From Artemia franciscana (taxonomy: Eukaryota > Arthropoda > Branchiopoda > Anostraca > Artemiidae), in contig NC_088880.1 in the NCBI RefSeq assembly GCF_032884065.1, positions 33,854,008 to 33,918,007 of the forward strand: a stretch of 64,000 bases of DNA. Reading direction: 5' to 3'. Below the pieces are notes generated by a model, which worked only from the letters and a program-made list of their open reading frames with translations, was not told where the DNA came from and made no database searches. The position numbers and the translations under genes are program-made. Positions within the stretch are counted from its first letter, which is position 1. Each line of letters opens with the position of its first letter. Positions 17,558 through 53,679 of this stretch are shown here, piece by piece.

Positions 17558-17642
17558 GTAGCAGTTTTATTATGTATATTAGGAGCATCTTTGGCCCTAG
17601 AACCTGAAAATAGAAGCAGTGATGATAAAGCTGTTCTAGAAG
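17558..17642 (+). CDS. Secreted Gln-rich protein copy 1, signal-peptide exon
   Basis: An 85-nt internal exon between a strong acceptor (T-run then tag) and a donor g|gtact. Entering in phase 0 and leaving in phase 1, it reads VAVLLCILGASLALEPENR followed by SSDDKAVLE and the first base of a Gly/Val codon. The hydrophobic core ending GASLA looks like the end of a signal peptide, cut before LEPE, so the product should be exported. An upstream exon should supply the start Met and a few residues, a layout common in arthropod cuticle and secretory genes. The exon at 48991 has the same length, phases and sequence pattern, strong evidence that it is real. The long downstream intron (17643..20438) joins it to the terminal exon. 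Confidence 0.8.
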
Positions 17643-17891
17643 GTACTCCCGTTTTCATGACAATTTTTGATCTTTTGACCATAGTTTTCAATTGTCTGGC
17701 TAATCACTCACAAGAATAAAATATTTGCAACTGTCTGAATAAAATATTTCGTTTGTCAATCTGATTTTAAAGAGGATAATTATGTATGTATATTACAGAC
17801 ATTCATTTGTCTTGTTTGTGATTAGACAGACAATTAGGTTACGTTATTTACAGTTATGAAAGCGTTTAAAATGTGAGTTGTATTTTTTTTT

Positions 17892-18340
17892 CGCTTGTGT
17901 GTTAGTTTTTGTTTTATTTAAATAATTTTATTCATTTTGAAATATTTTTTCATAATTTTTTTTTCCGCTGAAAGAGGTTCCCGGACGTAAAGTTTCTATT
18001 TTTGGTTTTATTCCACTGTTTATTTAAATCAAACCCGTTTTTCTCTTAATTTACCCTCTAACGCAAATCAGAAGTTCTAGTGCCCTTTTTAAGTGAACGA
18101 AAGATTTAGAGGGCAACAAGGCCCCCTCCCAAGCTCATTTTTTCCCGAAGTCAATGGATCAAATTTTACACTCTTGTGTGTTAGTTTTCGTTTTCTTTAG
18201 ATGATTTTATTCTTTTTTAAATACTTATTCTTATAAATCTGTTCCACTGAAAAAAGGCTCCGGAACGTGTAGTTTCTATTTTTTGTTCTGTTTCACTGTT
18301 TATTTAAATTAAAACCCGTTTTTTCTCTTACTTTTTGTAA
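17892..18340 (+). repeat. Fb1 piece flanked by 165-bp direct repeats
   Basis: 17892..18058 and 18173..18340 are diverged direct copies (shared gtgtgttagtttt, gttttattcattt-like, cactgtttatttaaat and aaacccgtttttctctta). Between them, 18060..18170 is an internal Fb1 piece (agaagttctagtgccctttt ... cccaagctcattttttccc). It lies in intron 2 of secreted-protein copy 1. Confidence 0.75.
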
Positions 18341-19149
18341 AAATAAATTCCTTCATACTCAATCATCTCTAATAGCCATGAGAGTAGGAAAATGAAAAAA
18401 TATTAACTAGGACTGGGCTAGAACAAATATACTTGTTCAAATGGGATTTTCGTCCTAAATTCAAAGTAAAACAAAGATTAATTAACAAAAAAGTCAAGTC
18501 AAGAAAACGGTTATACTATATGTAAAAAAAAATTCCAAAATTAACTAGGTATTTCTTTGAATTTGATTTTTGGATGAATGCTCCAATAGTACATGTATTT
18601 TTTTTTATTTACCCCCCTTGGACCCAAAACTCAGCATTAGTCAGAAAATATAAATTAGCCTACCCAGCAATAGCTCTGTCAAAAGTATTTTAAAAACCTG
18701 ACCGCCAAATCAGTTTTCATCCATGACTTCCCTTTTCATACAGTGCTTTTTTCGAATCCCTATCCCTTATTTTAGTAGTTTAATCGGTAACGATTGGCTT
18801 ATTTTCGCCTCATGTTAGAGTCCATGAGAAATATAAATGGTTGTATTTATGTAAGTTGATTTTACATAAATTATTGCTATAAAAAATGGCTGTATTTTCT
18901 TTATTATTCAGTTTTAGTTTATAGCGAGCCTTTCTAATTAAACAAAGATGCCTTTAGTTGTTCCAGTTCATTTCGTTATCGATATCAGAAGAAAGCAAGA
19001 AAAAAGGCTTCGGAATTCATAATGGAAAAAAACTTCTACAAATTATTTTCTAAGAGTCTTTGGCAAATTATTACGTTAATATTTTTTTTCTTGAATTTGA
19101 ATAAAATAAAAAGCCCTAAGGTACATTAGTTGATCGATCTTTGCTTGGA

Positions 19150-19385
19150 AATGTAGAAAAACAAAAAATGAATGTAATGACGATAAAGAAATAAATAGAA
19201 TGACGACAAATGATTATAATGAAAATAATGACGACAAAGGAATGAATATAATGGTGACAAATGAATATAATGAATATAAATGACGGTAGATGAATTATAA
19301 AATTAATATAATGAGGACTTATGAATATAAAGACCACAAAATGATTTATGACCAGTAAATGAAAACGAAGAGAAACAACAAAAAT
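19150..19385 (+). repeat. AT-rich minisatellite in intron
   Basis: Repeats of the type atgacgacaaatgaatataa with variable spacing. They generate a Phe/Ile-rich minus-strand ORF (19116..19388) that is not a gene. Confidence 0.8.
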
Positions 19386-20084
19386 CAAACGACCATTTCA
19401 CCCGTGTACAACAAGGCGTCTTCAGCGTAAAAAAAAACAAAAAAACAAACAAACTAGAAACTAAAACTAAAAAATATATATAAAACTGAAATAAACTAAC
19501 ACAAAATATATAATATACAATTACTTACTTTTGAAATTGACAGCTACCTTCATGGAACCACAAAAGTAATTTGATTGAAATTTTAAAATAACAAATAAAC
19601 TAGAATTGTCGTCTTTATATTCATTTCTTTAGTTTTGCCATGGCTGGCCAGTTCGGCTTCAGATCTTTTAATGGCAATACAGGCCAAGGGTTTGATCAAA
19701 GCTGGCATAGGGCTTAGAATTGCATGTAAATTGCACATCTTCAAATAATCAAACAAGAAAGGTCAAAGAAGGAACGGCTTGGCCATAAGACAGGGAGAAG
19801 GGCTTGCATGTTCAAAGTATGTTTATCCTAGCACTAATTGTGTTCCTGTCAAGACTGCCCATAAAGCATTATGAAGCATTGACACACAATTATTTAATGG
19901 GGTATAAACATCTAAATGACAATACACCAAGTAGATATGTACACAAGTTTTTTTGGTACAAACCAGCCAGATTTTTCAATTATGTGTATTTTAACAATTT
20001 TATGGAATTTTGAAATCCTTTGCCCAATTGAAATTAAATCACTCGCTTGTGTCTGGCACGGGAAAGGGTTTGAACTGGTTTTAT
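19386..20084. other. Intron 2 remainder, secreted-protein copy 1
   Basis: No gene, no classified repeat. The ORFs at 19804..20013 and 19916..20284 are short, and the second runs into a reversed LINE tail. Confidence 0.4.
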
Positions 20085-20300
20085 TACTACTAACAACTTA
20101 CTGCAGCACCAGGCCAACTAAGAACAACACAGCTGCGTACGCTACTCCTCCACCCCAGTCTATTCGAAACTTCAGTACCCCTCCCATGAAGCTCCGATTT
20201 TCTTTAAATTCTTCCTTAGGATTTCTTCCCAGCCCCGTCGAGAACGACCTTATTTTGTTTCGTTCCAAATGGATTACCGAATAGGATAATCTTTATACAA
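20085..20300 (-). mobile_element. LINE 3' end fragment (antisense)
   Basis: Read on the minus strand it is the 3' end of the 14274..15152 retrotransposon family: a TAG-type tail (ttactactaa), then ctgcagcacc, then the complement of the GWEDV region. About 215 bases remain. It sits about 140 bases before the terminal exon of copy 1. Confidence 0.75.
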
Positions 20301-20438
20301 TTTGGGTTACCCTTTAGTCCAAGAAAGGGGACTGCAGTTTTCTTCATCATGGCAAGAGTCAATCGCACTCCTTCACTATCCCCTCTATATATTTTTCAAT
20401 CCTTTCTATTTATATATTTTTCTATTTATTTCTTATAG

Positions 20439-21139
20439 TTGTTGATGACACTCCAGTAGAGCAGGAAGATCAGCAAAAGGATGATGAAGCTGTTGGTGAC
20501 AGTCCAGTTGAGCAGGAAGATCAGCAAGAGAACACTGATACTAGTTTCAGACAATTTTTAATCCAAAAACAGCCTAAGCCTGCACAAAGCCAAATTTTCA
20601 GGGTTATTCCTCAGCAGCAGAACTTATTTGCACCACAAATTGCACAGTATGAACAATTTAGAGCTCAACCCGTTTACCTTCTAAACCCATTTGCAGTTCA
20701 GCACAGCAACCCAAGCTACCAGACAGCTAAGATCTATCGAAGACCACAATTCGCAGGATTCAAAGGTCAAATCCCAGCTATAATTCAGCAAGATCAATAC
20801 AGCCCAAGCTACCAGACAGCCCAGCTATATCAACAACCCCAAAGTGTAGGATTCCAAGGTCAAGTCCCAACCCCAAATCCTAGATTTTTCTTTAAATATT
20901 TGAAGCACGAGAATGGTATTTGGTATGCCTGTAAGTTTATGTTGGGCTGTGTAGAGCTTCCATTTGGACAAGGAGAAGGAAATGGACTTCCACAACTCGT
21001 CGTAGGACAAGGAAACGGTCTCTCCAGTATCACTCAAGGGAATGGGCTTCCACAACTGATTGTAGGACAAGGAGGTGGCATCTCGGGTATCACTCAAGGA
21101 AATGTAAATCCAGGAGCGGGAACGGTTCTTGTTGGTTAG
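20439..21139 (+). CDS. Secreted Gln-rich protein copy 1, terminal exon
   Basis: Joined in phase 1 to the exon at 17558, it encodes 233 residues to the TAG at 21137. Order: an acidic 18-residue block occurring twice (VVDDTPVEQEDQQKDDEA then VGDSPVEQEDQQ); a hydrophilic region rich in Gln; two PSYQTA repeats of about 32 residues, each with a following F-x-GQ; PRFFF; a conserved motif WYACKFMLGCVELPF with a Cys pair spaced C-x5-C; then two 20-residue Gly/Gln repeats beginning GNGLPQL. No membrane segment, no catalytic motif. The acceptor is tttcttatag. The composition suggests an extracellular structural, matrix or secretion-type protein; no known family is recognised. The minus-strand ORF at 20825 is a shadow. 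Confidence 0.85.
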
Positions 21140-21193
21140 ATGTATAGTATTTATGAAAGGGGGGTATTTATGCTTGTTTTGCTTGATTCTTTT

Positions 21194-21199
21194 AATAAA
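21194..21199 (+). promoter_or_regulatory. Polyadenylation signal, copy 1
   Basis: AATAAA 55 bases after the stop codon, followed by a T-rich stretch. Copies 2 and 3 have a signal at a comparable distance. Confidence 0.7.
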
Positions 21200-21564
21200 G
21201 TTAGATTACATTTTTAGTTTTATTATCCTGAGTTCTATACTCTTAAGCCCTACTTAATACAGAAATTTGTCGTTATGACGTCATTCGTCTCTGACGTTTC
21301 TTTAACGTCAAGAACGTCTTTGACGTTCTTGGGTAGCGTAGGCTATAGTACCTCTTGTTTGTTTCGTTTTTTGTTTTGTTTTTCAAGTGCAATCAAAGAA
21401 TATAAAGATTAAGTAAAACCAATTCAAGCAATTCGTGCTATACTCAAAGAGCATGGGAAACAGATAAGAAGAAAATTGAGCCACTAGTTTGAATCTTATA
21501 TGAACAAACAATGCAAAAATACAGATGAAATTAAAGAGCAATATATAAACTTAAAACGATTAAA

Positions 21565-23290
21565 TCAAACAGTTCGCGGTAACGAACTGTAGTAAGGAGT
21601 GAAACTGCTCAATAGTTACCGAAACTCTAAAAAATGGAATTTTGTTACCAATAGATAAATCAAAAGAATCAGATTTTAATACTAATTTTAAATATATAAG
21701 TTTCGTCAAGTTTATTCTTACCATTCGAAAGTTACGAGCCTATATTATTTGCGTTATTTTCGAAAAAAGAGGGAAACACCCCCTAAAAGTAAAAGAATCT
21801 TAATGAAAATCACGCCATCAGATTCAGCGTATCACAGAACCCAAAAGTGAAGGTTTCAAGCTTCTAATGTCCTAAAAATGTCAAGCTCCTAAAAATATAG
21901 AATTTTGTATTTTTGCCAGAAAGAAAGATGACGGATACGTGTTTATTTATTTTTTTTTTGTTTTTTTTTCAGGGGTGATCGTTTCGACCCAGTGGTCCTA
22001 GAATATCACGAAAGGTCTCATTCCAACGGAAGTTAAAAGTTCTAGTGCCCTATAGTTCTAGCGACCAAAAAAATTGGAGGGCAACTAGGCCCACTCCCAA
22101 GCTCATTTTTTCCCAAAGTAACCGGATCAAAATTTTGAGATAACCATTTTGTTCAACATATTTGAAAAATTTAATAGCTATGTATTTGAGAACGACCTAA
22201 TCCCCCGCAGTCCCCGGGGGAAGGGCTGCAAGTTGTGAACTTTGCCCATTGTTTACATACAGTATTTCTTATTGGGAAGTATACAAACGTTTTCAAGGTG
22301 GATTTTTTCTGGTGGTGGGGGGGGGATACGTGGAAGGATCTTTCCATGGAGAATTTTATCATGGGAGAAAAAATTTTCATGAAGGGGGCGCTGAATTTTC
22401 CAGGATTATTTAAAAAAAATGAGAAATTAAATTAAAAAAAAAAAGTTTTCGACTGAAAGCATGGACCAACATTACAGCTTATGACGAATAGAAATTATTA
22501 CGTATAAGAGGAGCTTCGTCCCCTCCTAAATACCTCACTCTTTACACTGAAGTATTTTTAGAATATCAAAAGAGCTATTTATTCTAATTAAACGGCCTTT
22601 GTGATTCAGGGGTCATTTTTAAAGAATTTGAATAATATTCGAACTTTACTGTAAAGAGCGAGGTATTGACGAAGGGGCAAAACCCTTCAGATACGTAATA
22701 AAAATATATGAATATAGAAGTTCGTTACGTAAGTTAATTCGTAAGATACGTATATTTATTTACTAATAAAAACGTTCGCAAACAAAATTAAAAGTTCTAG
22801 TGGCCTTTTTAAGTAACCAAAAAATTGAGGGGGCAACTAGGCCCCTCCCCCGCCCCTCGTTCTCAAAATCGTCTGATGAAAACTTTGAGAAAGTCATTTA
22901 GCAAAAATAAGTAAAATTAATATGTAAATTTCGTTTTAACTATTCTTATAGGATGAGCCAAAATCAAAATCTGCATTAAATCAAAAACATTCAGAAATAA
23001 AATAAAAAGCAAGTTTTTTAACTGAAAGTAAGGAGCGACATTAAAACTTAAAACGAACAGAAATTATTCCGTATATGAAAGGGGCTGTCCCCTCCTCAAC
23101 GCACCACTCTTTACGCTAAAGTTTGACTCTTTTTCACAGCTCTACTTTTTAAAACAATGAAAAATCCTAGCGTAAAGAGCAGGGCGCTGAGTAGGGGACA
23201 GCCCCTTTCATACACGAAATAATTTCTCTTCGTCTTAAATTTTAATGTCGCTCCTTACTTTCAGTTAAAAAGCTTGTTTTTTTATTTTAT
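21565..23290 (+). mobile_element. Fold-back element Fb1, near-complete
   Basis: About 1.7 kb from A|TCAAACAGTTCGCGGTAACG to the T-rich end after the terminal hairpin. Landmarks in order: gaaactgctcaatagttacc, a ccctaaaagtaaaagaatct block, a caggggtgatcgtttcgacc block, gttctagtgccctatag, ggaagggctgcaagttgtga, a first imperfect hairpin (about 22440..22720) and the large terminal hairpin. No ORF has coding character, so it must be non-autonomous or an unusual replicon. Confidence 0.85.
23010..23276. repeat. Terminal hairpin of Fb1 (first copy)
   Basis: Arms of about 110 bases (actgaaagtaaggagcgaca ... ggggctgtcccct ... ctctttacgctaa) around a ~45-base loop. The arms are about 85-90% complementary. 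Confidence 0.9.
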
Positions 23291-23454
23291 ATTATTATTG
23301 GAATGACTGCTTAAGTACGAAGGCAATTTGAATGGGATAAAAGTATTTTTCACAACACCTCAAGAATTGAGAATATTATTGCTATACATTCGTTTTTAGC
23401 AATAAAATTTCCTTTCAAATGTTTTAAAAGGCGGAAATGCTTTTGGTATGGTAC

Positions 23455-23595
23455 TAAAAGACTTCAGTGTAAAGAGCCGGGGTTAAAGGGGGAGCAGCTC
23501 CTCCCTCTCATTTAAGGAATAATTTCTGTTCTTTCTAAGCGTTATAAATAACATTCTTTACTTTCACTTGAAAACACCTTTTGTTTCTACAGTCA
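23455..23595 (+). repeat. Isolated Fb1 hairpin right-arm fragment
   Basis: tgtaaagagccggggttaaa ... ggaataatttctgttctttc ... tttactttcacttgaaaaca is a diverged right arm only. It lies between two adjacent Fb1 copies. Confidence 0.65.
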
Positions 23596-24920
23596 TCAAA
23601 CAATTCCTGGTAACAAACTGTAAGTAAGGATAGACCCGGCTCAATAGTGACTGAAACTCTAAAAAACTAGTAGGTACTCTAGATACCAGTAGGTACATGA
23701 AAAGAATCGAATTTTTATGGTGATTTGAAATATGCTAGTTTTATTAAGTTTAGCCTTACCCACCAAAGGTTATGAGCCTGAAAAAGATTTGCCTGATTCT
23801 CGAATAAAAATCACACCATCAGATTTGGCTTATCAGAGAACTCTACTGTCGAGGTTTCAAGCTCCTATCTGAAAAATGCAGAATTTTGTAATTTTTTTTA
23901 CCAGAAGAAAGATCACGTTTACATGTTTATTTATTGATTTTTTTTCCCAGGTGTGATCGCATCGCCCTAGTGGTCCTAGAATATCGTGAAAGGGCTCATT
24001 CGAATGGGAATTAAAACGGAATTTAAGTGACCAAAAATGTTGGAGGGCAACTAGGCCCCCTCCCACACCCTTTTTTCTCAAAATGGTCCGATCAAAATTT
24101 TGGGATAGGCTATTTGTTTAGCATAGTTGAAAGGCCGAATAACTATGCCATTGGAGATTTAGCAATTCCCTAAAGCCTGTGGGGAAAGATCTAAGTTGCG
24201 AAATTTGTCCATTGTTTACGTATAGTATTTGTTAATGGGAAGTATGCATACATTTTTCTGGGAGGGCAGATTTTCTGCTGGTGGGATTCTCCAAGGGGAT
24301 AATATTCGATGCAAAGGAAGTTTCCAAGGAGGGAATATTTCAGGAGAAATTTTACACTAGGGGAATTTGCCAGAATATCTATATCAAATTCTTCTTATGT
24401 CCTATTTTCTCATTACCGACTTAATTTTACGGGTGGATTTGTTAAGGGTAATTGTCCGAGGTATATTTTCGCCAGAATTGAATTGTCTAGAGGATAAATC
24501 CACGAGAAGAGGGGATTTCCTGGCATTCCTGAACCTATAAGATCAGAAATTACCCAAAAAAGATCAGAAATTAAATAAAGAAAACAAGTTTTTTCAATTG
24601 AAGTAAGTAGTGACATTAAAACTTGAAACAAATAGAAATTATTGCGTAGATGAGGGGGTTCATCCTCTCCTCAATACTTTGCTTTTTGTGCTAAAGTTTG
24701 AAATCTGTCCCAATTCTTTAAGAACTGTTACCGAAAACTGTTCGTTTAATTAGAATAATAAGGAAATCTTTCTAAAATACTAAGAAAAATTTTAGCGAAA
24801 AGAGCAAGGTATTGAGGAGGAGCGACCCCTCTCATATACGTATTAATTTGTGTTCGTTTTAAGTTTTAACATTGCTCCTTACGTTTGGTTAGAAAAACTC
24901 GAATTTTTTATTTAATCATC
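23596..24920 (+). mobile_element. Fb1-type element, shorter subfamily
   Basis: Begins TCAAACAATTCCTGGTAAC and ends after a hairpin near 24590..24905 (gtgacattaaaacttg ... attgctccttacgtttgg). The middle resembles 1940..2245 (acactaggggaatttgcca, ttttacgggtggatttg) more than the 1.7 kb copies, so 1243 and 23596 form a subfamily. Non-coding. Confidence 0.75.
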
Positions 24921-25039
24921 ATAAGAAACCAGTTCTTTTGATGTATTTTATTGCTATCAAAACTGCTTTTTTTTGCAATTTTGTTTACTATTTGTACTGC
25001 TTACTCCTTACTTACAGTTCATTAGCACGACCTAATTGA

Positions 25040-25215
25040 CAAAAGCCAGTAACGTGCACTGCTGCACTGCAAGTGCAGGAGTGCTGCACTGCAAGTGAAC
25101 TGCTGCACTGCAAGTGCAGTAACTGCAAGCGTACTGCTGCACTGCAAGTGCAGTAACTGCAAGTGCACTGCTGCACTGCACGTGCAGTAACGTGCACTGT
25201 GCACTGCTGAACTGC
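25040..25215. repeat. Palindrome-rich tandem repeat (TGCACTGCAAGTGCAG)
   Basis: About 170 bases of permuted ctgctgcactgcaagtgcag and taactgcaagtgcactgc units. ctgcac/gtgcag pairs make most units self-complementary. Three overlapping Cys/Ala/Ser-rich minus-strand ORFs are artefacts of this repeat. Confidence 0.9.
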
Positions 25216-27156
25216 CAACTAAAAACATTCAAAAACAAGTAGGTTATTGATTTGGATTAAGGATTAAGGAACTAAGTATTTCTGATATCCATCCTGTAAT
25301 AGGGCAATTTCTGAAACTCAGTTTCCGAATTTTTCAATTCCGATTTTTGAATTCCGATTTCTGATTTGAATCCAATTCCTAAAATTAGGAAGATTCGTTT
25401 TCTTAGAAATACCTCTAACTTATTATAAGACAATTAGGGCTTGGTTAGAACACAAAACGTGGACTATTTCGAGAAAATTACAAAAATTTACTTATTGGTG
25501 GTAATAGTGGTTATTCTACTTTAGCTCAATGTTTAACACAAACTTATGTTAATAAAACAAAAAACAAAAATTTGTATCGACGTTTTAGCTGCTATTAATT
25601 TTTAATGGTATTTGTTGTATTTTCCAAAGTAATGAACTGTGATTAAACAGCAACCCGTGTGATTAATAACCGAAAATGTAAAAACAGAATTTCCGCCGAA
25701 AATAAACATAAAAAAAAAAAAATCAGTTTTATGTTGATCCCAAATTTAATAATCACTAAGCTTATAGATCAACGTCAAAAAACTAGTGTAGTTTTTTAAA
25801 CTACAAACACTTTCTGAAAACACCCCTATTAAGCTCGGCCTGACCTTGGTTATTTTTCTTTCAAGAAGTTTTTCTTTCATTGATGGCTCATTCAAGCGTG
25901 CCAACTTCTGCCATTATATGTAGCAACCGAACAATTTCTCTTACTAGGACCAAAATACTGTTAAGCAAATATTCAAAAATAGCCAATCACTTTAAACTAA
26001 AAGGCTTTACTAGTACTAACATTTATGAAAAATTGCATAGGCACGTATTACGTATTAAAAGATGATTATCAAAGTTTATTGAAAGGGGGAGGGGGTCTAG
26101 CATTTAAAAACGTTTGCCTTTGATCCCAAGCTTCTAAACTTTCCATAAGATGCATTCAAAATAAATATGAAAGGGAGATTTAGCCTCCTGACTTCAACAA
26201 CAAATTCGAGAGAAAGGTGTGATAGGGCGTCCCCACTAAAAAATCATCCTATACGTCGGTTTGCAATTTTATGTTTAAATAAAATAAAGATGACTGTCAT
26301 AACCATTCCACACAAGGTCTTACCTAATGCATTTTATTACCGAATATCTTGTCTAAACATAAAATGTAATGTTTAGTTGAAACAAACTAAAATATGAGCC
26401 CTATTGTCCATCTGAATGACCAGTCCTCCTCCCTCAATCAAAAACTTGACCTCCTAAGCGTCCCTTCCCCCAGGAGAATTCCCCCAGAAATTTTACCCCT
26501 GGATAATTCCCCCTGTCGAAGATTCCCCCTCGTACAAAATTGAACTTCCACAGAGAAAGTACCAAATGGGTACCTCAAAATATCGGTTAGAGATATTGTC
26601 CTAAGGGGTAACAAAAAGACCAAATGTCTGCACTTTCCTTGAAGTTTAACAAGCCCTTTTCAGTATCAAAAATGAATTGAATCAAACGGTATATCATATT
26701 TTCTGAGCAAAACGCGAATGAAACAAACCAAATAAAAATAAAAAGACAAAACAAACAACGCCGAAACTAAAAAGAAAAAAAGCAAATAGAAGAATAAAAA
26801 AATCTCTAAATCTCCTTATGAAGGAAAAGGGATTGTTCTCAAGAAAAAATCCTCGGGAAGTCTCCAGGATACATGTTCATAATTTTTGAGTGAAAATAAG
26901 AGTGAAACAACCCGAATAAAAAGAAAAAGAAAAAAAAACAGATAACACAGAAAGTAAAAAGCAAAAATGATAAAATTCGTAGAATTAAAAAACTAACACT
27001 CCGAAAAAAACCAACAACATATAAAATAAATAGCATGGAGTTAAACTTTAAATCAGAACTAAGCAAATTTCAAATGAACAGGGCATATTATTCCAAAAAT
27101 ACAAAAGTTTAAAAAAACATAAAAAACTTAAAAAAAATGAAAATGAGAACCACTGG
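25216..27156. other. Unassigned AT-rich sequence
   Basis: No gene recognised. 25310..25400 has a short internal repeat (attccgatttttgaattccg). 26400..26540 is a Pro-codon-like C-rich stretch with gaattcccccagaaatttta and gataattccccctg echoes of the ggagg-rich middle of Fb1. A DNA-transposon end is seen at the right edge (gagaaccactg before gtctagac). Confidence 0.4.
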
Positions 27157-27269
27157 TCTAGACAATTCAATCCTAGTGAAAGCTTACCCCGCACAAGTAC
27201 CCTTAACATCTCCACGCGTACAATTGAGTCGGCAAAGAGAAAGCATGACCTAGGACGAATTTCTTATAG

Positions 27270-27493: not shown

Positions 27494-27534
27494 GTCTAGT
27501 GCATAAATCCCTGATTGAGAGAAAAAATGTTTCC

Positions 27535-27640
27535 GTGGCGTTATTGTAACAACAATCAAATTGTAACAACGTTATTGTAATCGTTAGTTGTAACGTTATT
27601 GTAACGTTAGAGTGTATCGTTATTGTAACAACGATCAAAA
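27535..27640. repeat. Short cluster of gttattgtaac repeats
   Basis: gttattgtaacaacaatcaa, gttattgtaatcgttagttg and related phrases repeat five times in 100 bases, with local complementarity (ttgtaacaac). Confidence 0.75.
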
Positions 27641-27644
27641 ATTC

Positions 27645-32862: not shown

Positions 32863-33918
32863 GTGAAGCCACTATCAATATGGTGTTAAATTTCTTAATT
32901 TACCAGATAAAGATGGTCACGCATGCGACCATCCTTATTCCGTAGCACAATATTACCAAGAGAGGAGTCTTTCGAGTGAACGCTTAAAGTGCCACGCTTA
33001 AAGTGAAGCCACTATCAATATGGTGTTAAATTTCTTAATTTACCAGATAAAGATGGTCACGCATGCGACCATCCTTATTCCGTAGCACAATATTACCAAG
33101 AGAGGAGTCTTTCGAGTGAACGCTTAAAGAGCCACGCTTAAAGTGAAGCCACTATCAATATGGTGTTAAATTTCTTAATTTACCAGATAAAGATGGTCAC
33201 GCATGCGACCATCCTTATTCCGTAGCACAATATTACCAAGAGAGGAGTCTTTCGAGTGAACGCTTAAAGTGCCACGCTTAAAGTGAAGCCGCTATCAATA
33301 TGGTGTTAAATTTCTTAATTTACCAGATAAAGATGGTCACGCATGCGACCATCCTTATTCCGTAGCACAATATTACCAAGAGAGGAGTCTTTCGAGTGAA
33401 CGCTTAAAGTGAAGCCACTATCAATATGGTGTTAAATTTCTTAATTTACCAGATAAAGATGGTCACGCATGCGACCATCCTTATTCCGTAGCACAATATT
33501 ACCAAGAGAGGAGTCTTTCGAGTGAACGCTTAAAGTGAAGCCACTATTAATATGGTGTTAAATTTCTTAATTTACCAGATAAAGATGGTTACGCATGCGA
33601 CCATCCTTATTCCGTAGCACAATATTACCAAGAGAGGAGTCTTTCGAGTGAACGCTTAAAGTGAAGCCACTATCAATATGGTGTTAAATTTCTTAATTTA
33701 CCAGATAAAGATGGTCACGCATGCGACCATCCTTATTCCGTAGCACAATATTACCAAGAGAGGAGTCTTTCGAGTGAACGCTTAAAGTGAAGCCACTATC
33801 AATATGGTGTTAAATTTCTTAATTTACCAGATAAAGATGGTCACGCATGCGACCATCCTTATTCCGTAGCACAATATTACCAAGAGAGGAGTCTTTCGAG
33901 TGAACGCTTAAAGTGCCG
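32863..33918 (+). repeat. Satellite array, 8 units of 140 or 126 bp
   Basis: Units start gtgaagccactatcaatatg at 32863, 33003, 33143, 33283, 33409, 33535, 33661 and 33787. The first three are 140 bases and the last five 126. The difference is an extra 14-bp gccacgcttaaagt, a tandem copy of the unit's own end. Units differ at only a few positions. Each carries an imperfect dyad atggtcacgcatgcgaccat with the perfect core cgcatgcg. No coding capacity. Confidence 0.97.
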
Positions 33919-44672: not shown

Positions 44673-45819
44673 TCACAGAAATTTTGGAGGGTACTCATTA
44701 CGTAAGAAATAGAGAGTTACTCTTTTTTTTACAAGTCAAAAGTGATTCGAGACCAACCAGCCGTGGGGGCTATTTTTTTTGGGGGGGGGGGGTGTTTTCC
44801 GAGGTGGTGGTATTTTCCGCGGGATGTGGGGTATTTTCTGGGGTATTTTCCACGATGTAATAAACACCGGCTCTCCTAAAGAACAGCGACGGGAGAGAGA
44901 GAAAAAAATCAGTGACTTTGAGTTTTCAGACACGCTTTCCACAGAAGTGACAAAACCGAAAAATTTTGCTTGATAAACAACCAATTTTTTAACCCTAATT
45001 TTTTATTTAATCCTATGTTTTTAAACCAGATTCAAAATTAAAGCTGGAATTAATTAGAATATCTTCATTTCGCAATCGCCTGTACCAAATCCTACCGTCT
45101 GCTAGATACACAGCTAGTCGTAGTCTGCCCGATTTTCTTTGAGAGAAGTCGAAAGGGTATTTTTCTCTGCATTTGCAGCGTATCTGGTTCTGTCAGGAGG
45201 GACTTTAGGACCTGTGAATAATCTTCCTGAACTGGGCAAAAGGCAAGATGAGAAAAGATAGATGAGAAAAAACAACTAACCACTCTTACCACGGCCGTGA
45301 TAAGTTGGAAAAGGTGAAGTTGTGCAGCTTTGAGGAATCCATCTACAACTAAACTACAGCCCAGGAGAATATTAAGAATTTTAAAGAGTGACCCATACCT
45401 ATAATTAATATAATTACGCCATTTATTGGCCAAATCGACAGTGCTGTTGGCAAAACTGCAACTTGCAATTCTGTAACTGAAAATATGGGTTGTGGATGCG
45501 CAAAAAAAGATGTAATCAATATGAATAGTCTCAATTTCCTGAAGTATGTCTCAAAGCCTTTTCTTGAAAGCCAAGGCGCTCTAAAACAGATAGAAGAAGG
45601 ATTTGATTTTCAAATTAAAGCAAGGCAGTCGAAAGTTATATGTAATAGTTACAAGTTTGAGTTCATTGTTTCAAGGAGATAAACTATAAGATTTCCTTAT
45701 ACCAAACCCCTGACAGTTACTCATTTCCAAATTTTTTTACTATTTGAACTGAGCAGCGATACGGTTGTGACGCTTAATGGGGTCTGGGCCAAATCATCTG
45801 TGGTAATTAAAACCAATCA
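44673..45819. other. Unassigned sequence
   Basis: 44765..44860 is a G-rich stretch of gtattttcc(g/a)-type repeats. The minus-strand ORF 45092..45433 (113 codons) contains a hydrophobic stretch but no recognisable domain or splice context; I do not call it a gene. Confidence 0.4.
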
Positions 45820-46100
45820 ATAATAAATAAATAAATCATCAGTATAATAATAAATAAAGTAAAATAATAAATAAGTAAAAATAAGTAAAAAATAAGGTAA
45901 AAAAATAAAGTAAAAAAAATAAATAAAGTAAATAAAAATAAATAAAGTAAAAAAATTAATAAAGTAATAAATAAATAAATTAATAAATAAATTAATAAAG
46001 TAATAAATAAAGTAAAGTAAATAAAAAAAATAAAAAAAATAAATAAAGTAAAAAAAAGTTAAAATAAATTAATGTAAAATAATAAATAAAGAGCGATAAT
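45820..46100. repeat. AT low-complexity tract (aataaa/gtaaa)n
   Basis: About 280 bases built from aataaataaa and aaagtaaaa permutations, almost free of G and C. Confidence 0.95.
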
Positions 46101-46949
46101 TAAATAGCACCCTTTGCCAGGAGAAACGCATCTAAACGCACTACGCACTAACGCACTAAAAACAACAATTTTAACGTGGATATAGGCTATCGATAGAATC
46201 TCCTTTCAACGGAGATTCCAAATATGTGAAATTCGTATTTTGATTTCATATGTCAATAGTTATGAGCAGAAAAAGATCGAAATATTTTTTCCCGAGTCCC
46301 ATAACTCTGTTTTAGTCCCCTATTTAGTTCCAAATGTATACCCGTACAGAAAGATACTGAAACAGTCTCGTATCTTCTGAACAGTTGATCGGGCCCCCTT
46401 CTTGTTCTCAATTCTAAGTTTTCTTTTATTGCTTTAAAAATGTGTCCAATTTTAAATGAAAGTTCCCTTTTTATCACTGTTTAATCTAAGTCTTGGTGAC
46501 TTTTTCATTTTTAGGGTGCCTTGATATAGGTGGTGCGGGGTGATATCTCGCTTCTTATTTCACAAAACTGTTTTCTTTGTAGCATAAAAGATTATATTTA
46601 TATACTTACCGGTACAAATGGTGGAGATGCGGGAGAAGGCCTACTGACCATCTTCAGGGACTTATCGAGGAGGGGGGAAGCAAATGGTACCAGTAATTTT
46701 TTTTTCATCAAGGTTTAAATTGAAATATTGGGTTATATGCTTGCTTTTTTAATATTTAAACGGTTTGTTGTAACTCGTGCTAATAGTAACCGGAATTGTA
46801 AAAAAAAAGAAATTTGATATGAATATGTACATTAAAAGAAGTCACTTCTTATGGAGACTAAATTAAAATAAAACAGGTTTTTTCAACTGAAGTTAAGGAG
46901 CAACATGAAAACTTGAAAACGAGCAGAAATTATTCCATAGTACACCTTA
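46101..46949. other. Unassigned, with an Fb1 arm remnant
   Basis: 46860..46940 is an Fb1 hairpin-arm start (ggttttttcaactgaagtta, gagcagaaattattcc). The rest is not recognised. The ORFs 46253..46477 and 46530..46718 lack domains. Confidence 0.45.
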
Positions 46950-48880
46950 GTGCCTTTAGTAATGGCAGTAGCAGCAGTAGCAGTAGCAGTAGTAGTAGTG
47001 GTATGCATATAGCAGCTTTTGGTTTGTTCAACATTCCCCTCAAGATGAGCTAAAAATTTCAACTTGCTCTTGGCTCTTCCTCAAATATCGCTCTTATGCC
47101 ATTTTGATAACCGACATCAACATAGTATGGTTCGATTTGGTTCAACATTCCCTGAAAATGTCACCTCAATGTCCTTAGCTTCAGTAGCAGTATTAGTCGT
47201 AGCAGTAGTAATAGTTGTAGTTGTAGTAAAAATAATTTTACAGGCAATTGTAACAGTAGTAGTTGAACCAGTAGCTGTAGTAGTGGCAGTAGTGTGCACA
47301 GAGTATGTTTTGATTAGGTAAACATCCTCTTAACCTAACCTGACAGTTTGAGCTTAATATCCTATGCCGTTCCTGGGACATTGTTGATGTGCCCTATTGA
47401 TATGCTTCAAGCATATACTGTTTTTTGTAGTTAAACACCCCCTAAACACTCTAAAAGCTTTATTTTTGTACCCGTAGGAGTAGTGAAAAAAAAGCTGTAG
47501 TAGTAGTAGCAGTATTCACATGAGCCTGTTGGTTAGTTCAACATCCCCCTCAAAGTGTCCTGAAAGTTTCAACTTAATCCCAACTGTTCTAAAGACATTG
47601 CCTATACGCCCTTTTGACAATCTGAATTCATATAGTACGTTTTGATTTAAGAGTTCGGCTTTTGACAAACTCCTCTTAAACATTCTTCCAAAGTTTCACC
47701 TTAATACAATTAGCCCCTGTAGTAGCAGTAATAGTAGCAGCAGTAGTAATAGCAATAGTTGTATAGGTAGTTCAATATTCCCCTCAACAGCCCTGAAAGT
47801 TTCAACTTAATGCTGTATGCTGTTCCTGAAATATAACTGATGCACCTTTTCGACAACCTACACGTGCATACTACCTTTTGATTTAGAGCAACATCCCCTC
47901 ATCTTTCCCTGAAATTTTTATTTTTATATCCTTAGCTTTATAGTCGCAGTAGTAGTAGCAGAAGTAGTGGTAGCAGTAATAGTAGTAGTAGTAGCAGTAG
48001 TAGTAGTGGTAGTAGCATGCAAATACTGCCTTTTGGTTAGTTCAACATTCCCAACGACATGAACTGCAAGTTTAAACTTAATGCTCTAAGCCGTTCCTAA
48101 GACATTACTTGTACACCTCTTTGACGACCTGCATGAACATAGTGTGTTTGATTTAGTCCAACTTACCACTAAATATTCCCTTAGGTTTTAACTTTTAGCC
48201 TTAGTAGTAGTAGCAGTAGTCACAGTAGTAGTGGTAGGAGCAGTAGTAGTAGTAGTAGCAGTAGTAATTTGCATACATAGCCTTTTGGTTAGTTGAACTT
48301 TCCCCTCATCGTGCCCTGAAAGTTTCAACTTTACACTCAAGGCCGTTCCTAACATATTGCTGAAACGTCCTTTTTACAAACTGTAAGCGCATAGTTTATT
48401 TAGTTTTAGTTCAACTTACGCCCTTTTGACAGTTTGTACGCATATATGGTGTTTTTATTTAATTGAACACTCCCCTCAACATTCTTTAAAAACTTTGCCT
48501 GAATGCAATTGGCCCTTTGGACACCAAGGGCCAAACATTGTCCCTTTTTCGATAATTGTAACTATACATATATGTTAACAATAGGTAAATTGTATAGTTT
48601 AAAGACCTTGCCCCAAAGGTTATAGGGTGGGTAGTGTCATCACCATAGGCATAGATGTTGAACCTTTCAACAATGCTGAACAAAATGGCTATCCCAAAAT
48701 TTTGGTCGAAGGTCTATGGATAAAAAGGGGCATGAGAGGATAACTGGTTGACCTCCAATCACTTTTGACTCTTAAAAGAACTATAACTTTCGATTTCCAA
48801 TCGAACGAGACCCTTCAGAAGTTTCTATGACGACTTCTTCCATACTTAGTGCCTTGGCGGAAGAAAATTATTATTGCATT
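46950..48880 (+). repeat. Composite TAG-bearing satellite element, copy 2
   Basis: Six modules of about 230-285 bases anchor at ggttagttcaacattcccc-type phrases near 47021, 47303, 47531, 47767, 48018 and 48283. Each carries a (TAG)n or (GTAGCA)n tract and gcatacatagccttttg-type text. A unique tail (48430..48880) contains acaaaatggctatcccaaaa and gatttccaatcgaacgagac, matching 10709..11070 and, more distantly, Fb1. It ends about 110 bases before an exon of secreted-protein copy 2. The Val- or Thr-rich ORFs at 47064..47321 and 47117..47299 are artefacts. Confidence 0.85.
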
Positions 48881-48990
48881 GATCCTACTTTGCTCTTTAA
48901 TCAGGCAGCGCTATTGCGCTGCCTATGATAGTATCAATAACTTAATATCAAATATGTTTACAAGTATTTTTAGTTTTTTTTTTCTTTTAG

Positions 48991-49075
48991 GTTGCAGTTT
49001 TCGTTTACATATTGGGAGCATCTTTGGCTTTGGAACCTGAGTACAGAAACAGTGGAGAGGAAATTGTTCCTGAAG
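48991..49075 (+). CDS. Secreted Gln-rich protein copy 2, signal-peptide exon
   Basis: 85 nt, acceptor cttttag, donor g|gtact, phase 0 in and 1 out: the same as the exon of copy 1. It reads VAVFVYILGASLALEPEYR then NSGEEIVPE. ILGASLALEPE is identical to copy 1, while the residues after the predicted cleavage are diverged but still acidic. The start Met must come from an upstream exon, not identified. Translation from the ORF at 48849 would read through the intron and is not the product. It can splice in phase to the terminal exon at 51031 and equally to the one at 53081. Confidence 0.85.
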
Positions 49076-49466
49076 GTACTTCTTTTTCTTTGACCATTTG
49101 ACCTTTTTCGTTACAGTTGTTCAAATTGAAACTTTTTTTGCTTTTAACCTCTTTTGATAACATGGCCTTTTTCATTTTTTTTTATATCTAGTTTTTTCAT
49201 GGCCTTTTCTTCAATCATTAATGAGGAGCTGACTATTCCAGAAAGAACTTCTTTTTTAAGGACAAATCCTATTTACGAAAACTGTATTTATAATTTCTTA
49301 AGCACATTAATTTGACTTTTCGTTTAATATGACGTTTGCAAAATGGACATTTAAGGGAAGAGGGGAAGAAGCCTTCTTCTTAAGGAAGAAGCCCATCAAG
49401 AATAGCTTAGAGTATATTTGGGTATTTAGCTTTACGAAGTCCATCTCACATGTGTTTCATTTTACT

Positions 49467-50030
49467 ACTACTACTACTGCTAACAACTCATCGCAGCACT
49501 AAGCCGTCTGAGGCAAAAACAGCAACGCACGCTCCTCCTCCATCATAATATGCTCAAGGCCTCCCACTTTCACCCTCCCAGGAAGTTCCCAGTTCCCTGA
49601 AACCTTTCTTTACGACATCCTCCCGCCCCAACTGCGAACGACATGATTTTCGTTCAGCCCTAAACGGTTGTCCGAAAAGGACAATCTTTGGCAATCTATC
49701 ATCCTTCATCCACAAAACGTGCCCTAGCCATCTAAACCTTTCTCTTAATATAGCCTAGGAAGCAGGATTGAACCACAATTTTCACAAAGCCTATTGCTTG
49801 AAATGCGGCCAGTCAGCCGGGTACCCAAAACAATCCGTAGGCAGTTTCTCTGGAAAACATCTACCAAATTTTCCTCCGTTTTTCGTACCGCCCATGCTTC
49901 AATACCATATTTGACTCCAATATTCTAATCTTGGTTCGCAGACTTATCCTCCAATCCTTCCAAGTTTTTTCAACTGAGTAAAAAAGCCCTGGCCCTCGGC
50001 TATTCTACTTTTAACATTTTCACTTCAGTG
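49467..50030 (-). mobile_element. LINE 3' part (antisense), reverse transcriptase C-terminus
   Basis: On the minus strand it aligns with 14600..15172: GTT..CAGTTGAAAAAACTTGG, ACCAAGATTAGAATATTGGA, TGTTTTCCAGAGAAACTGCC, GGGTACCCGGCTGACTGGC, GATGGCTAGGGCACGTTTTG and GGGAGGATGTCGTAA, ending in CTGCGATGAGTTGTTAG and a TAG tail (ctactactactactg on +). Internal deletions, for example at the VMTVVKYG region, make it dead. It lies in intron 2 of secreted-protein copy 2. Confidence 0.9.
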
Positions 50031-51030
50031 AGTCAAAATTAAAGTAAGCAAAATTAGTGCCGATATCAGATACAAGGTTTTTTTTTTAGTCTTTCAATTT
50101 GAAAACCTAAGACATCGATACCCGAGTGAGGTAGGAGAAGACTTTACTACGAAAATTTTACTCATTTAAGTGAATATCCCTGTTTTATTCTGTTTTTGTT
50201 TTGTGTTTGTCTGTAGGAGGAGAAAGCGGTTGCAACTCAGCATTTTGTTTCTGTCTCAAATAGTTGCATGGCCAATCTAGTTAAAATAGCCAATGACAAG
50301 CAGGTGAAAGCATTTTTTAGGGGGGGAACTGAGAGGAGGGATCGAAACTTGTCCAAACTATGAGAAACAAGCAACTTAACTGAGCTTTAGAGAAAATAAG
50401 GGAACTAAAAGAATTTAGATGTGGGAAGGTAGCTTAGATCCTCTTTGCTGAGTACAAATTTTATTAAAAATATTTGCAGCGTCATACTTAATAAAGTAGA
50501 AAATACAAATTTGCATAATTCTTATCAAAACGACGACATCCATTTGTAAGTGATAAAGGTAACGAGGGCTAAAGGCCAAAGCTGCCATCCAAGCCTACCG
50601 AGTGCCATTAAAAAGCCCATGAAACGTGGTTTTTTGCCAAGTACATATAATAGTATATATGTTTGTAACATATACGTGTATGTATACGTGGGTGTGTCCG
50701 TGACCGCGCAGGGACGTTGGTGTGTGTGTTTTGTGCTTGCGCGCATATATAAACATATTTCAAACAGTCTTCGCTAACCGTAGGTTTCATCCTTTAGCAT
50801 TAAATATAGCCTCACGTAACTCCCCTACAGTCTCTTTTATGAGTTTTTGTGCTTTCTGAGTCAATCAAAGGACCATGAGGGATGATCTGCTAAACAGCTT
50901 TTGTTATTAAAAGAAGGAATAATATACATTTTCATTATGATTTTTCCTATTTCAGAGAATGATCTATTCATCCCTCTTTTAAACTCTCATATTTTAGTAT
51001 CTCCTCCAACTGTATTTTCTTTTTATGTAG
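50031..51030. other. Remainder of intron 2, copy 2
   Basis: No other gene. 50640..50760 is a GT/TA-rich low-complexity stretch. The acceptor at 51029..51030 (ctttttatgtag) ends the intron. The in-frame ATG at 50901 opening the ORF that runs into the exon is inside the intron and not a plausible start, because copies 1 and 3 are not conserved there. Confidence 0.6.
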
Positions 51031-51725
51031 TTGTTGGTGACGGTCCAGTCGAGCAGGAAGATCAGCAAGACGAAAACCAAAACGGTTTCGGAAAACTATT
51101 AATAAAAAAACAGGCATTACCAACACTAAGCCAATTTCTCAGAGGCATGCCTCAACAACAGAGCTTTTTCGTGCCAGAAGCTTCTCAGTATGATCAGAAA
51201 TTATTTAGATTTCAGCCCGCATATCAACTCAATCCAGCTGCCTTTGGGCCAAACCAATACACCCAGAGCTTCCAGGCAGCTAAGATCTATCAACACCCCG
51301 TGATCACAGGAGTCGAACGTCAAGCTCCAGCTGCCATTATGCTGGACCAATATACCCCAAGCTATCAGACAGATAAGGTAAATCAACAGACCCAAATCAC
51401 CGGGTTTCAAGGTCAAGCCCCAGCTGCTAGTCCTAGATTTATATTCCTTGCGGAACAAAATGGCCATTGGACCGCGTGCAAGCTTCTTTTGGGTTGCGTT
51501 GACATACCATTTTTTGGACATGGTCATAATGAACATCATGGCCATCAAGAACATCACGGTCATAAAGAACATCATGGACATGACCACAAGTGGGCAAGCG
51601 GACATGTCAAAGATAAGTGGACAAGCGGACACGTCAAAAACAAGTGGACAGATGGATATGTCAAAGACAAGTGGACAAGTCAAGATGTGTCCAACATACA
51701 ATACATAATTGGCAGCTATCTATAG
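51031..51725 (+). CDS. Secreted Gln-rich protein copy 2, terminal exon with His-rich tail
   Basis: Phase-1 acceptor tttttatgtag. 231 residues to the TAG at 51723. Order: VVGDGPVEQEDQQDENQ; a Gln/Phe-rich stretch; about three PSYQT/QSFQAAKIYQ repeats; PRFIFLAEQNGHWTACKLLL then GCVDIPFF, which is the most conserved part of the family and contains the C-x5-C pair; then a tail with 12 His in 24 residues built from three (N/Q/K)EHHGH hexads (51515..51590); then four 9-residue KWxSGHVKD repeats; and a hydrophobic end IQYIIGSYL. The His tail resembles metal-binding or pH-responsive secreted proteins, an inference only. The minus-strand ORF 51201..51701 is a shadow. Confidence 0.9.
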
Positions 51726-51792
51726 CCACTAACAAATTATTAACAATGGTGAGGGTATTTATTCTATTTGTCCTTATTTTTAGTAAATTTGG

Positions 51793-51798
51793 AATAAA
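51793..51798 (+). promoter_or_regulatory. Polyadenylation signal, copy 2
   Basis: AATAAA 68 bases after the stop. The surrounding 3' UTR (ggtgagggtatttatt) is also present after copy 3, so the duplication included the 3' UTR. Confidence 0.7.
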
Positions 51799-52382
51799 AT
51801 TACAATTTGTTTCATGTTATAATTTTATACTAAAAGGCCATAGGCAGCTAGAGTTTGTCTTTCGCTTTTATTTCTTGAGTTTTTTTCGTTTTTTGTTTTG
51901 ATGATAGAGAGCCTTATCTGTTTCTGCGTAGATTTTAAGAAATTATTCTCCAATATTACACAGTCTTAATTATTTAACTTTGTTATCTAAAAATACTCCC
52001 TAAGCATGAAGCTAGGTCACGTGATGTAAAACTACAACTGGTTTTCAATTTTTATGGCCACTAGTTCAATACGACAAGCCCCTTGAGGAGAGGTGAAAAC
52101 GCACTTATTCTTTCCAGCAAACATGCACAATTCCTTAGACCTAAAACGTAGGGGTCTTCATTCCAATGAACAACTAATGTGTCTGCACAGATGCTGTCTT
52201 GTATAACTGATCACGATAGGTTACTTTTTAACAACTGGGGTCTGGTAGAGCCTAGTTGCTTGAGGCTACAGTTTTTTTCAATGATAGTTTTTTACGTAAA
52301 ATGATGGTCAAAGGCTAACCGATCAACAGATTCAGATAGGAAGATAAATTAAGTTAATTCTGAAAAACCAAAGGATTTAGAC

Positions 52383-52568
52383 AAGGCTGTATCCAGGGGG
52401 AGAGGGGTTTGAATCCCTTCCCCCTAAATGTTTGTCTGACTCATAAAAATGTAACAAAAATGAATGTAAACAAAATTTTATTCGTTTTTTAAAGTTTTTT
52501 GTAACGTTCCTCCCAAATAAAACCTTTTCTAAACCGTCCCCCGCAAAAAAAACTGGATAAGGCCCTGG
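52383..52568 (+). repeat. Dispersed repeat also at 62548..62710
   Basis: aaggctgtatccagggggag ... aatgtttgtctgactcataa ... ccgcaaaaaaaactgg ... ccctggat matches 62548..62710. It ends exactly where a possible exon remnant begins. Confidence 0.85.
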
Positions 52569-52606
52569 ATCCAGAAACAGAGAGTGGATGTGAGGAAATC
52601 GGAAAG
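52569..52606 (+). pseudogene. Possible remnant of the signal-peptide exon of copy 3
   Basis: ccagaaacagagagtggatg tgaggaaat..., followed by a gtaa donor, resembles the 3' half of the exon at 48991 (tacagaaacag/tgga/gaggaaatt). Insertions of 4 and 3 bases would shift the frame and bring in TGA, and the 5' half is replaced by a dispersed repeat. The match is short, so chance is possible. Confidence 0.35.
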
Positions 52607-53080
52607 GTAAAGTTTTAAAAACAATATTAAAGTACCAAGAACAGTTTCAGATCTGGGAAATCTATTTCTAATTGTGATGTGCAGGAAGAACATCGCCACT
52701 AAGTTTTGTCAGGGAGGATAAACTTTTCCATTGAATACGATTGGTTATCATCTCGCATAATGGCAATCGATTGAAACAGTCTCGATATTTTGATAGAAAT
52801 AAATCAGGTTCGGGTCTTCTGCCCATAGCAAACATTGCCTCGCGTCTCCTCCTTAGGATCTTCAAAATTTCCGCTATTATCCGCTTTCAATAATTTTGGT
52901 TCAATCAAGTCCAGAATGAGGCTCATTAAGGGAAGGTCAATAGAATTATTTCTTCCTACTAAATAAAATAAAAGCACATATTTTATGGTAATTTGTCATA
53001 CTTCAAATGGACCTTCAGACATTCCTCTGCCACACCCATTTCTGTTGTTTCACATATCTTCCAATTGTGTTTTTTTGTAG

Positions 53081-53679
53081 TTGTTGGTGACAACCCAGTC
53101 GAGCAGGAGGATCAGCAAGGTGATTATCAAACTAATTTCAGACGATTATTACTCCAGGAACAGATAAGGCCCGCGCTCAGTCAATTTTTCAGAGGCCTTC
53201 CTCAACGACAGAACTTCATTACACCACAAGTTTCCCGGTATGGTCAGAGTTTCTTCAGAGCTCAGCCTGCATACCTACTCAGTCCAACTGCCTTTGAGCA
53301 AGAACAATACTATCCTAGCTTCCAGACAGCTGAAGTCCATCAACAACACCAAACCCCAGGTTTCCAAGATAAATTCCAGGCTACGTTCAAGCAGCAACAT
53401 AATCCGAGCTACCAGAAAGATGGAGCATATCAACAACCACAGATTACAGGGGTTCAAGGTCAAGTCCAAGCTCCAAATCTTAGATTTATATTTCTTTCAG
53501 AACAAAATGGCCATTGGTCCGCTTGCAAGCTTCTGCTAGGTTGTATAGATATACCATTTATCGGACATGGACATCACGGAAATGACCACAAGTGGACAAA
53601 TGGACACAACAATCACAAGTGGACGAACAAAGAAATGTCCACAATACGACACATAATCGGTGATATAATTAATATATAG
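53081..53679 (+). CDS. Secreted Gln-rich protein copy 3, terminal exon
   Basis: Phase-1 acceptor ttttttgtag. 199 residues to the TAG at 53677. VVGDNPVEQEDQQGDYQ; a Gln-rich middle with RGLPQRQNF and PSFQTAEVHQQ and PSYQKDGAYQQ repeats; LRFIFLSEQNGHWSACKLLL then GCIDIPFI; then a short tail GHGHHGNDHKWTNGHNNHKW. It is closest to copy 2, sharing the 3' UTR, but lacks the hexad expansion and most 9-residue repeats. No intact signal-peptide exon is found between it and copy 2, so it is either an alternative last exon of copy 2 or a gene that lost its 5' exon. An intact frame argues that it is used. Confidence 0.85.

Follow-up and report, generated by a model that had tools for sequence, protein, structure and literature searches.

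What do the glutamine-rich open reading frames that recur within a 64-kb stretch of the Artemia franciscana genome (assembly GCF_032884065.1, contig NC_088880.1, positions 33,854,008 to 33,918,007) encode, and how many genes do they make up? The whole stretch, referred to here as the window, comprises 64,000 nt with a GC content of 0.358, and all coordinates are given on its forward strand. Searching it by tblastn with five exon peptides recovered, at this sensitivity, three terminal exons (T1, T2 and T3) and two signal exons (S1 and S2), which are described below as copy 1 (S1 and T1), copy 2 (S2 and T2) and copy 3 (T3). With slightly better than even confidence, we read this DNA as encoding secreted structural proteins of low complexity that form a small and old tandem family, in which T2 and T3 would be alternative last exons on S2. 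Homology, coding constraint, the splice and poly(A) signals and the relations among the tails are shown by the sequence; secretion (from the leader), a matrix role, cross-linking and alternative splicing are the parts of this reading that we infer.

Both signal exons (S1, 17558..17642; S2, 48991..49075; + strand) are 85 nt long and open over 28 residues from these boundaries, encoding VAVLLCILGASLA/LEPENRSSDDKAVLE and VAVFVYILGASLA/LEPEYRNSGEEIVPE, respectively, where the slash marks the cleavage site. The acceptor of S1 is TTTTTTTAG and its donor AAG/GTACTC; AG acceptors with pyrimidine tracts and AAG/GTACT donors delimit the exons. The intron preceding VAV... must be in phase 0, because an in-frame TAG sits at the acceptor, and since S1 has no ATG of its own, a short first exon must lie upstream. 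A phase 1 intron leads into the terminal exon, the spliced join reading E-V-V-[DG]-D. The terminal exons, all on the + strand, measure 701 nt (T1, 20439..21139), 695 nt (T2, 51031..51725) and 599 nt (T3, 53081..53679) including the stop codon, with open frames of 232, 230 and 198 residues; with intron read-in included (279, 273 and 235 aa), they are the three longest stop-free runs of the window. Poly(A) signals AATAAA follow at 21194..21199, 51793..51798 and 53748..53753 (+). The length of both signal exons, the intron phases, the splice signals and the AATAAA sites agree between copies, and translation, tblastn and splice signals reproduced the exon coordinates, the 85-nt signal exons and the common intron phases that the initial annotation had reported. 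Calculated from the coordinates, the introns span 2.8 kb (copy 1), 2.0 kb (copy 2) and 4.0 kb for a junction of S2 with T3; the Artemia genome description in PMC8406910 gives a GC content of 34-35% and a mean intron of 3458 bp, with which the window is compatible, although its GC content, introns and LINE and GIY-YIG fragments would suit many other animals.

The start of T1 is itself duplicated in tandem (20437..20530, +; units 20437-20479 and 20488-20530, 51-nt spacing, 88% identical, VVDDTPVEQEDQQ and AVGDSPVEQEDQQ). A second AG in the same phase, lacking a pyrimidine tract, lies at 20488-20490, and as an alternative acceptor 51 nt downstream it could skip one acidic repeat.

Relatedness among the exons is strong. 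Pairwise tblastn of the terminal exons gave E values of 8.5e-46 (T1-T2), 1.3e-45 (T1-T3) and 3e-62 (T2-T3), their whole alignments scored 420-548 against shuffle maxima of 53-62 (200 shuffles each), and S1 and S2 were identical at 18 of 28 residues (tblastn, E 3.5e-7). The best further match in the window was a minus-strand repeat, 25229-25071 (E 0.033 by tblastn; E 0.044 by hmmsearch with filters off). Ratios of non-synonymous to synonymous substitution (dN/dS) were 0.36 (copies 1-2), 0.32 (1-3) and 0.33 (2-3) at dS of 1.14, 1.29 and 0.83, as estimated by a Nei-Gojobori count over 192-196 aligned codons in an alignment made on proteins, in which gaps come in threes by construction. Third codon positions changed most (95/214, 93/219 and 67/166 for pairs 1-2, 1-3 and 2-3), and the reading frames are open despite several length differences among the terminal exons. 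By these measures the terminal exons are old duplicates under purifying selection.

Across the three terminal exons, 69 alignment columns are invariant, including the acidic PVEQEDQQ start and the W-x-A-C-K-x3-G-C motif, both of which had been proposed as shared and are indeed identical in every copy. The PSYQTA repeats, proposed as common to all three, occur in exact form only in copy 1 (twice); copy 2 carries the variant PSYQTD and copy 3 carries PSFQTA and PSYQKD. The domain order runs from a hydrophobic leader ending in SLA/LEPE through an acidic VxDxPVEQEDQQ start, a core rich in Gln, Tyr and Pro that holds two loose repeats (PSYQTAxxYQQPQxxGFQGQ) and a Cys module (consensus RF[IF]F...NGxWxACKxxLGC[VI][DE][IL]PF) to a tail. 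In both signal exons the hydrophobic stretch terminates at SLA/LEPE, where the -3/-1 small-residue rule places the cleavage. Counted from LEPE, and assuming the S2 leader for copy 3, the mature chains of copies 1, 2 and 3 have 248, 246 and 214 residues, isoelectric points (pI) of 4.8, 6.2 and 6.3, and a composition of Gln 39, 29 and 30 and Tyr 9, 10 and 8, with two Cys each. Mature Lys amounts to 7-15, and His to 2 in copy 1, 16 in copy 2 and 11 in copy 3.

When the Cys module of T2 (51414..51512, +; QAPAASPRFIFLAEQNGHWTACKLLLGCVDIPF) was folded alone, a three-stranded beta meander was predicted with a mean predicted local distance difference test score (pLDDT) of 74.9, residue blocks 11-20 and 21-30 reaching 84. 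Cys22 falls in predicted strand 2 and Cys28 in strand 3, and in this model the two strands would be joined by a disulfide. A Foldseek search of the module against the PDB returned 113 matches up to E 10, of which the best had E 3.3 and none had E <= 0.001.

Does the family belong to any that is already described? The family-match negatives that follow cover Pfam-A, NCBIfam and PDB sequences as well as viral, prokaryotic and plasmid collections, with no eukaryotic protein set among them. Neither the three terminal exons nor the two signal exons matched Pfam at E up to 1. Extending the limit to E 10 brought up SelP_N for copy 2 (E 9.1), which was judged compositional, and nothing for the three Cys modules. 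Three NCBIfam matches of the copy 2 His tail, all to metal transport proteins and all below cut-off (the best, at E 0.0031, reached 16.8 bits where 195 were required), were also put down to composition. Searched by sequence against the PDB, copy 2 matched nine distinct sequences with E of 1 or lower, the best at E 0.014. Four were constructs of viral fusion glycoproteins, aligned along ~57 residues close to the chain end; since the three-sequence profile recovered nothing within the same E limit, these matches were regarded as chance. The best of six matches to the Cys-module profile up to E 10, a designed ankyrin (E 2.4e-4), broke down into four 15-16-residue matches with an i-Evalue of ~300 each and was dismissed as chance. 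No relative was confirmed among 39 pattern matches in viral contigs or among 247 and 73 matches in prokaryote genome contigs, an absence as expected for an animal gene, and a tblastn of 156 copy 2 residues against plasmids gave no match. Rfam and tRNA scans yielded 0 hits. Four family peptides had no occurrence in the full-text literature searched, and nothing recognisable as this family was found among the papers listed on glutamine-rich eggshell proteins, histidine-rich crustacean matrix proteins or alternative last exons of cuticle genes; what a study of lacewing venom says about splicing (PMC12758981) had no bearing on it. The earlier statement that no known family is involved thus holds for Pfam-A, NCBIfam and PDB sequences, and homology, dN/dS and domain searches support a constrained family of secreted Gln/Tyr/Pro-rich proteins with a fixed Cys motif.

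Comparison with known matrix proteins gave partial likenesses; the family is neither of the CPR nor of the peritrophin type and is not recognisable as SGEG2. Peritrophin-type CBM_14 is a six-Cys chitin-binding domain, unlike the mature chains here, which have just two Cys and no Pfam match. CPR cuticular proteins (PF00379) are, according to the account in PMC2259329, similar in being small secreted structural proteins encoded by tandem copies with few exons; they also have an intron within the signal-peptide code, as is presumed here. In contrast to them, the R&R chitin-binding consensus was not found by Pfam in T1-T3, S1 or S2, the core here is Gln-rich, and a Cys pair is present, whereas mature CPR proteins hardly contain Cys (0.03% in the figures of PMC2259329). 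S1 and S2 begin in phase 0 without an ATG, and the upstream searches given below established no first exon; an interrupted signal code of the CPR type is putative here. The Artemia shell-gland proteins SGEG1 and SGEG2 of the cyst shell matrix share with the present family that they are secreted matrix proteins for which the authors reported no database relatives (PMC3108945). SGEG2 is thought to be cleaved at a kexin-type RYKR site, as described in the same report; RYKR and four antibody-peptide pieces were missing from all six frames of the window, a weak test across species, as these are exact short strings. We take the GHG repeats found here to be similar to those of the squid histidine-rich beak proteins (DgHBP). 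By analogy only, the latter are also His-rich secreted structural proteins, forming a catechol-His cross-linked material as presented in PMC9716703, but only copies 2 and 3 here have a His tail, and a short one.

The tails are where the copies part. Tail 1 (62 aa after LGC) is built from a 20-residue Gly/Gln/Asn repeat with a 60-nt unit (2.2 copies, 20976-21104). Tail 2 (75 aa) is made of repeats rich in His, Lys and Trp (51519..51679, +), in which HGHNEH-type 18-nt units are followed by KWTSGHVKD-type 27-nt units, and tail 3 (44 aa) is its shorter relative: their alignment scored 112 against a shuffle mean of 33, a score reached by 0 of 1000 shuffles. Tail 1 showed no significant similarity to tails 2 and 3, with 167 and 281 of 1000 shuffles, respectively, reaching the observed scores. 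The region after the motif is accordingly unrelated between copies 1 and 2, as initially proposed; the description of the tails as exchangeable and freely changing applies to copy 1 versus copies 2 and 3, and fails between the mutually homologous tails 2 and 3. Immediately behind the module the residues can apparently be aligned (GQG and GHG, Gln and His differing by one base), and DNA similarity between copies 1 and 2 reaches slightly past the start of the tail, to 20996/51552. The other two + frames of tail 1 contain no HGH-type repeat, and a frame shift was rejected as its origin. To judge by these patterns, repeat turnover from a common short Gly-rich stub would be as possible as exchange of a foreign tail.

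Downstream of the stop codons, the presumed 3' untranslated regions (3' UTRs) share the 10-mer GGGTATTTAT, located 22 nt after the stop of T1 (21162..21171, +), 27 nt after that of T2 (51753..51762, +) and 26 nt after that of T3 (53706..53715, +), in each case preceding AATAAA. With both strands counted, the window contains it at these three places and nowhere else (100 shuffles had 0.27 on average and at most 2), and any common 10-mer was seen in 7 of 20000 random triples of 121-nt stretches. Both counts overstate independence: the string was picked after viewing the three ends, which are themselves homologous (copies 2 and 3 agree at 60 of 72 aligned positions). The string persists in copy 1 although synonymous sites of this copy differ from those of copies 2 and 3 at 59-62%. 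We take the UAUUUAU inside it to be the core of AU-rich, Tis11/TTP-type sites.

How, then, would copy 3 be expressed? Homology between copies 2 and 3 begins within the intron, at 50905/52957 by blastn and at 50869/52919 when a preset stretch beginning at 50860 was aligned more leniently, and ends at ~51847/53801, beyond the poly(A) signals; the visible duplication is therefore that of the terminal exon, not of the whole gene. The last 100 intron bases of copies 2 and 3 are identical at 69/89 positions (0.775; mean 0.59 and maximum 0.75 in 200 random pairs), and those of copies 1 and 2 at 62/87 (0.71), inside the random range. In the 1355 nt separating the T2 stop from T3 (51726-53080), a usable copy 3 signal exon was not found. 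Together with the onset of homology in the intron, this makes copies 2 and 3 possibly alternative last exons of one gene, and as the simplest model T2 and T3 may share S2.

That interval does hold a stretch at 52561-52614 (core ALDPETESGCEEI, ~52561-52600) which resembles the second half of S2 and is followed by AAG/GTAAAG. As a working leader it was rejected: it has no hydrophobic part, and the donor-like site leaves phase 0 instead of 1. Against S1 the core did no better than chance (78 of 500 windows by peptide, 221 of 400 by DNA), and taken with its flanks the region stayed at background level (241/400 and 306/400). The stretch is possibly a chance likeness or a decayed leader, and in the latter case copy 3 would be dependent on S2 or dead.

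Three separate genes, with copy 3 having its own promoter and either a signal exon too diverged to recognise or a leader elsewhere, form the most serious competitor, which we nevertheless consider distinctly less probable than a shared S2. In its favour, copies 2 and 3 are 2 kb from each other and each has its own poly(A) signal, secreted genes often occur in tandem, a first exon may be very short, and 51726-53080 contains three short ATG-donor candidates; on the other hand, this interval is just 1355 nt long and no chain of TATA, initiator (Inr), ATG and donor was found in it. The S2-like core weighs on both sides. Its resemblance to S2 somewhat exceeds expectation by peptide (8 of 500 same-size windows reach its score), but it has the structural faults given above and is unremarkable against S1 and at DNA level. 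Decaying pseudogenes or chance open frames are quite unlikely; they would account for a first exon that is not established and for a copy 3 without a usable leader, or perhaps with a decayed one, and are opposed by dN/dS of 0.32-0.36 at dS near 1, by frames that survive length changes and by the presence of splice and poly(A) signals. Secreted antimicrobial or host-defence peptides, in which an acidic pro-part would precede a Cys module and a tail rich in Gly or His, would match the secretion, the tandem duplicates and the variable Gly-rich and His-rich tails. We think them unlikely, given that the mature proteins are acidic to near-neutral (pI 4.8-6.3), that they share no common processing site and that no convincing family match was obtained. 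Still more improbable are neuropeptide or hormone precursors, in favour of which are the signal peptide, the repeats and a C-x5-C loop of the present proteins: each protein has one dibasic site, at residues 116, 41 and 36, which are non-equivalent positions, and the repeats are not flanked by cleavage sites as in neuropeptide precursors. Acidic or near-neutral chains without equivalent processing sites thus speak against hormone precursors and most antimicrobial peptides alike.

Several points weigh against the family of structural proteins with alternative endings on S2 that we prefer. It is known here from DNA sequence and predicted structure alone. No chitin-binding, cuticle or other matrix domain was found with Pfam, and the full-length AlphaFold2 model from the three-sequence alignment had a mean pLDDT of 36.6, which is very poor without necessarily indicating disorder; it showed three strands (136-157), a helix of low confidence (182-196) and hardly any other feature. 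With three sequences, constraint on copy 3 is inseparable from that on copy 2 and the constrained branch is not assignable; copy 3 may be a promoterless relic. The S2-like core matches S2 at E 1.4, with its peptide score attained by the windows counted above and its DNA score by 32 of 400; if it is a decayed leader, the whole gene would have been duplicated, after which copy 3 lost its own leader. Finally, ATG-donor and TATA-Inr-ATG-donor searches upstream established no ATG exon for S1 or S2. ATG-donor candidates numbered 4, 7 and 3 upstream of S1, S2 and T3, none convincingly common to them, and 1, 1 and 0 remained when TATA and Inr were required, with 1 on the entire reverse strand. Failure to detect this exon would be unsurprising if its coding part is just a few residues long, which is usual for first exons of insect cuticular genes: in Anopheles, 86% of intron-bearing CPR genes have an interrupted signal code and exon 1 holds 3-36 coding nt, according to PMC2259329. 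Upstream of S2, a short frame MGCGCAKKD followed by GTAATC was noted at 45485-45511 (+) within an open reading frame (ORF) at 45392-45682 that had no convincing Pfam match (DHQ_synthase, E 0.18); it may be an unrelated exon or chance.

Under the preferred reading, a short ATG exon, the 85-nt signal exon and one large terminal exon would be spliced together, and the product would be exported with its signal peptide cut off at SLA/LEPE. Outside the cell, the core rich in Gln, Tyr and Pro would become part of a matrix, where it would probably be cross-linked through Tyr-based (oxidative) or Gln-Lys (transglutaminase-type) bonds, with a disulfide within the three-stranded beta module. The His-rich tails of copies 2 and 3 would probably add metal or catechol-His links, by analogy with the squid beak proteins of PMC9716703. 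T2 and T3 as alternative endings on S2 would let one transcription unit make two proteins with the same leader. A structural protein that assembles extracellularly would fit the composition, the low-confidence structure, the repeats and the small module capable of a disulfide. An extracellular material, as first suggested, is a reasonable inference from composition; its narrower forms, an adhesive or an egg or cyst coat, are indistinguishable from cuticle or another gland secretion, and our best reading of the setting is cuticle, egg or cyst coat, or gland secretion.

Remnants of mobile elements and simple repeats surround the exons. Similarity to a long interspersed nuclear element (LINE)-like reverse transcriptase lies at 14126-14656 (+; RVT_1, E 4.5e-6, 27 bits, just under the Pfam cut-off of 29.6). 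The LINE-like fragments, assigned by similarity, occupy 14126-15152 (reverse transcriptase on +), 49463-50024 and 20082-20294: 14585-15169 matches 50024-49463 in inverted orientation (79%), and 20082-20294 matches 49472-49689 directly (68%), which places pieces in the copy 1 intron as well as in that of copy 2. GIY-YIG endonuclease similarity was seen at 57900-58292 (-) and 63329-63934 (+), the first passing the Pfam cut-off (E 6.9e-7) and the second falling short of it (E 0.003), in ORFs which we presume to be Penelope-like element remnants. A satellite-like tandem array at 32863-33915 has 140- and 126-bp units matching at 94% and 99%. AT-rich and TAG/CAG trinucleotide-type arrays lie upstream of S2 (45822-46090 and 47941-48266), and similar trinucleotide arrays occur near 3553 and 10279.

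The family is constrained and possibly lineage-restricted, its alternative-last-exon arrangement is plausible, and it is not categorically new. A further interpretation, tentative and in our estimate rather improbable as a whole, is that one locus provides matrix proteins with interchangeable ends: a shared signal exon would be joined to alternative last exons with their own poly(A) sites and a conserved GGGUAUUUAU 3' UTR control element, and tail chemistry would switch between units over the same assembly core. The switch would then be between a neutral Gly/Gln repeat and a metal-binding or catechol-linking His repeat, and a common unseen ATG exon, if it serves both signal-exon units, would make the tail depend on which ending is chosen. 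Secreted proteins rich in Gln and Tyr or in His are in demand as bio-inspired materials. If the preferred reading is true, the secreted structural proteins of animals would gain an orphan family, and the locus would offer a compact case of a fixed core with unrelated tails arisen by repeat turnover, in which gene duplication and alternative last exons can be tested against each other as sources of variety.

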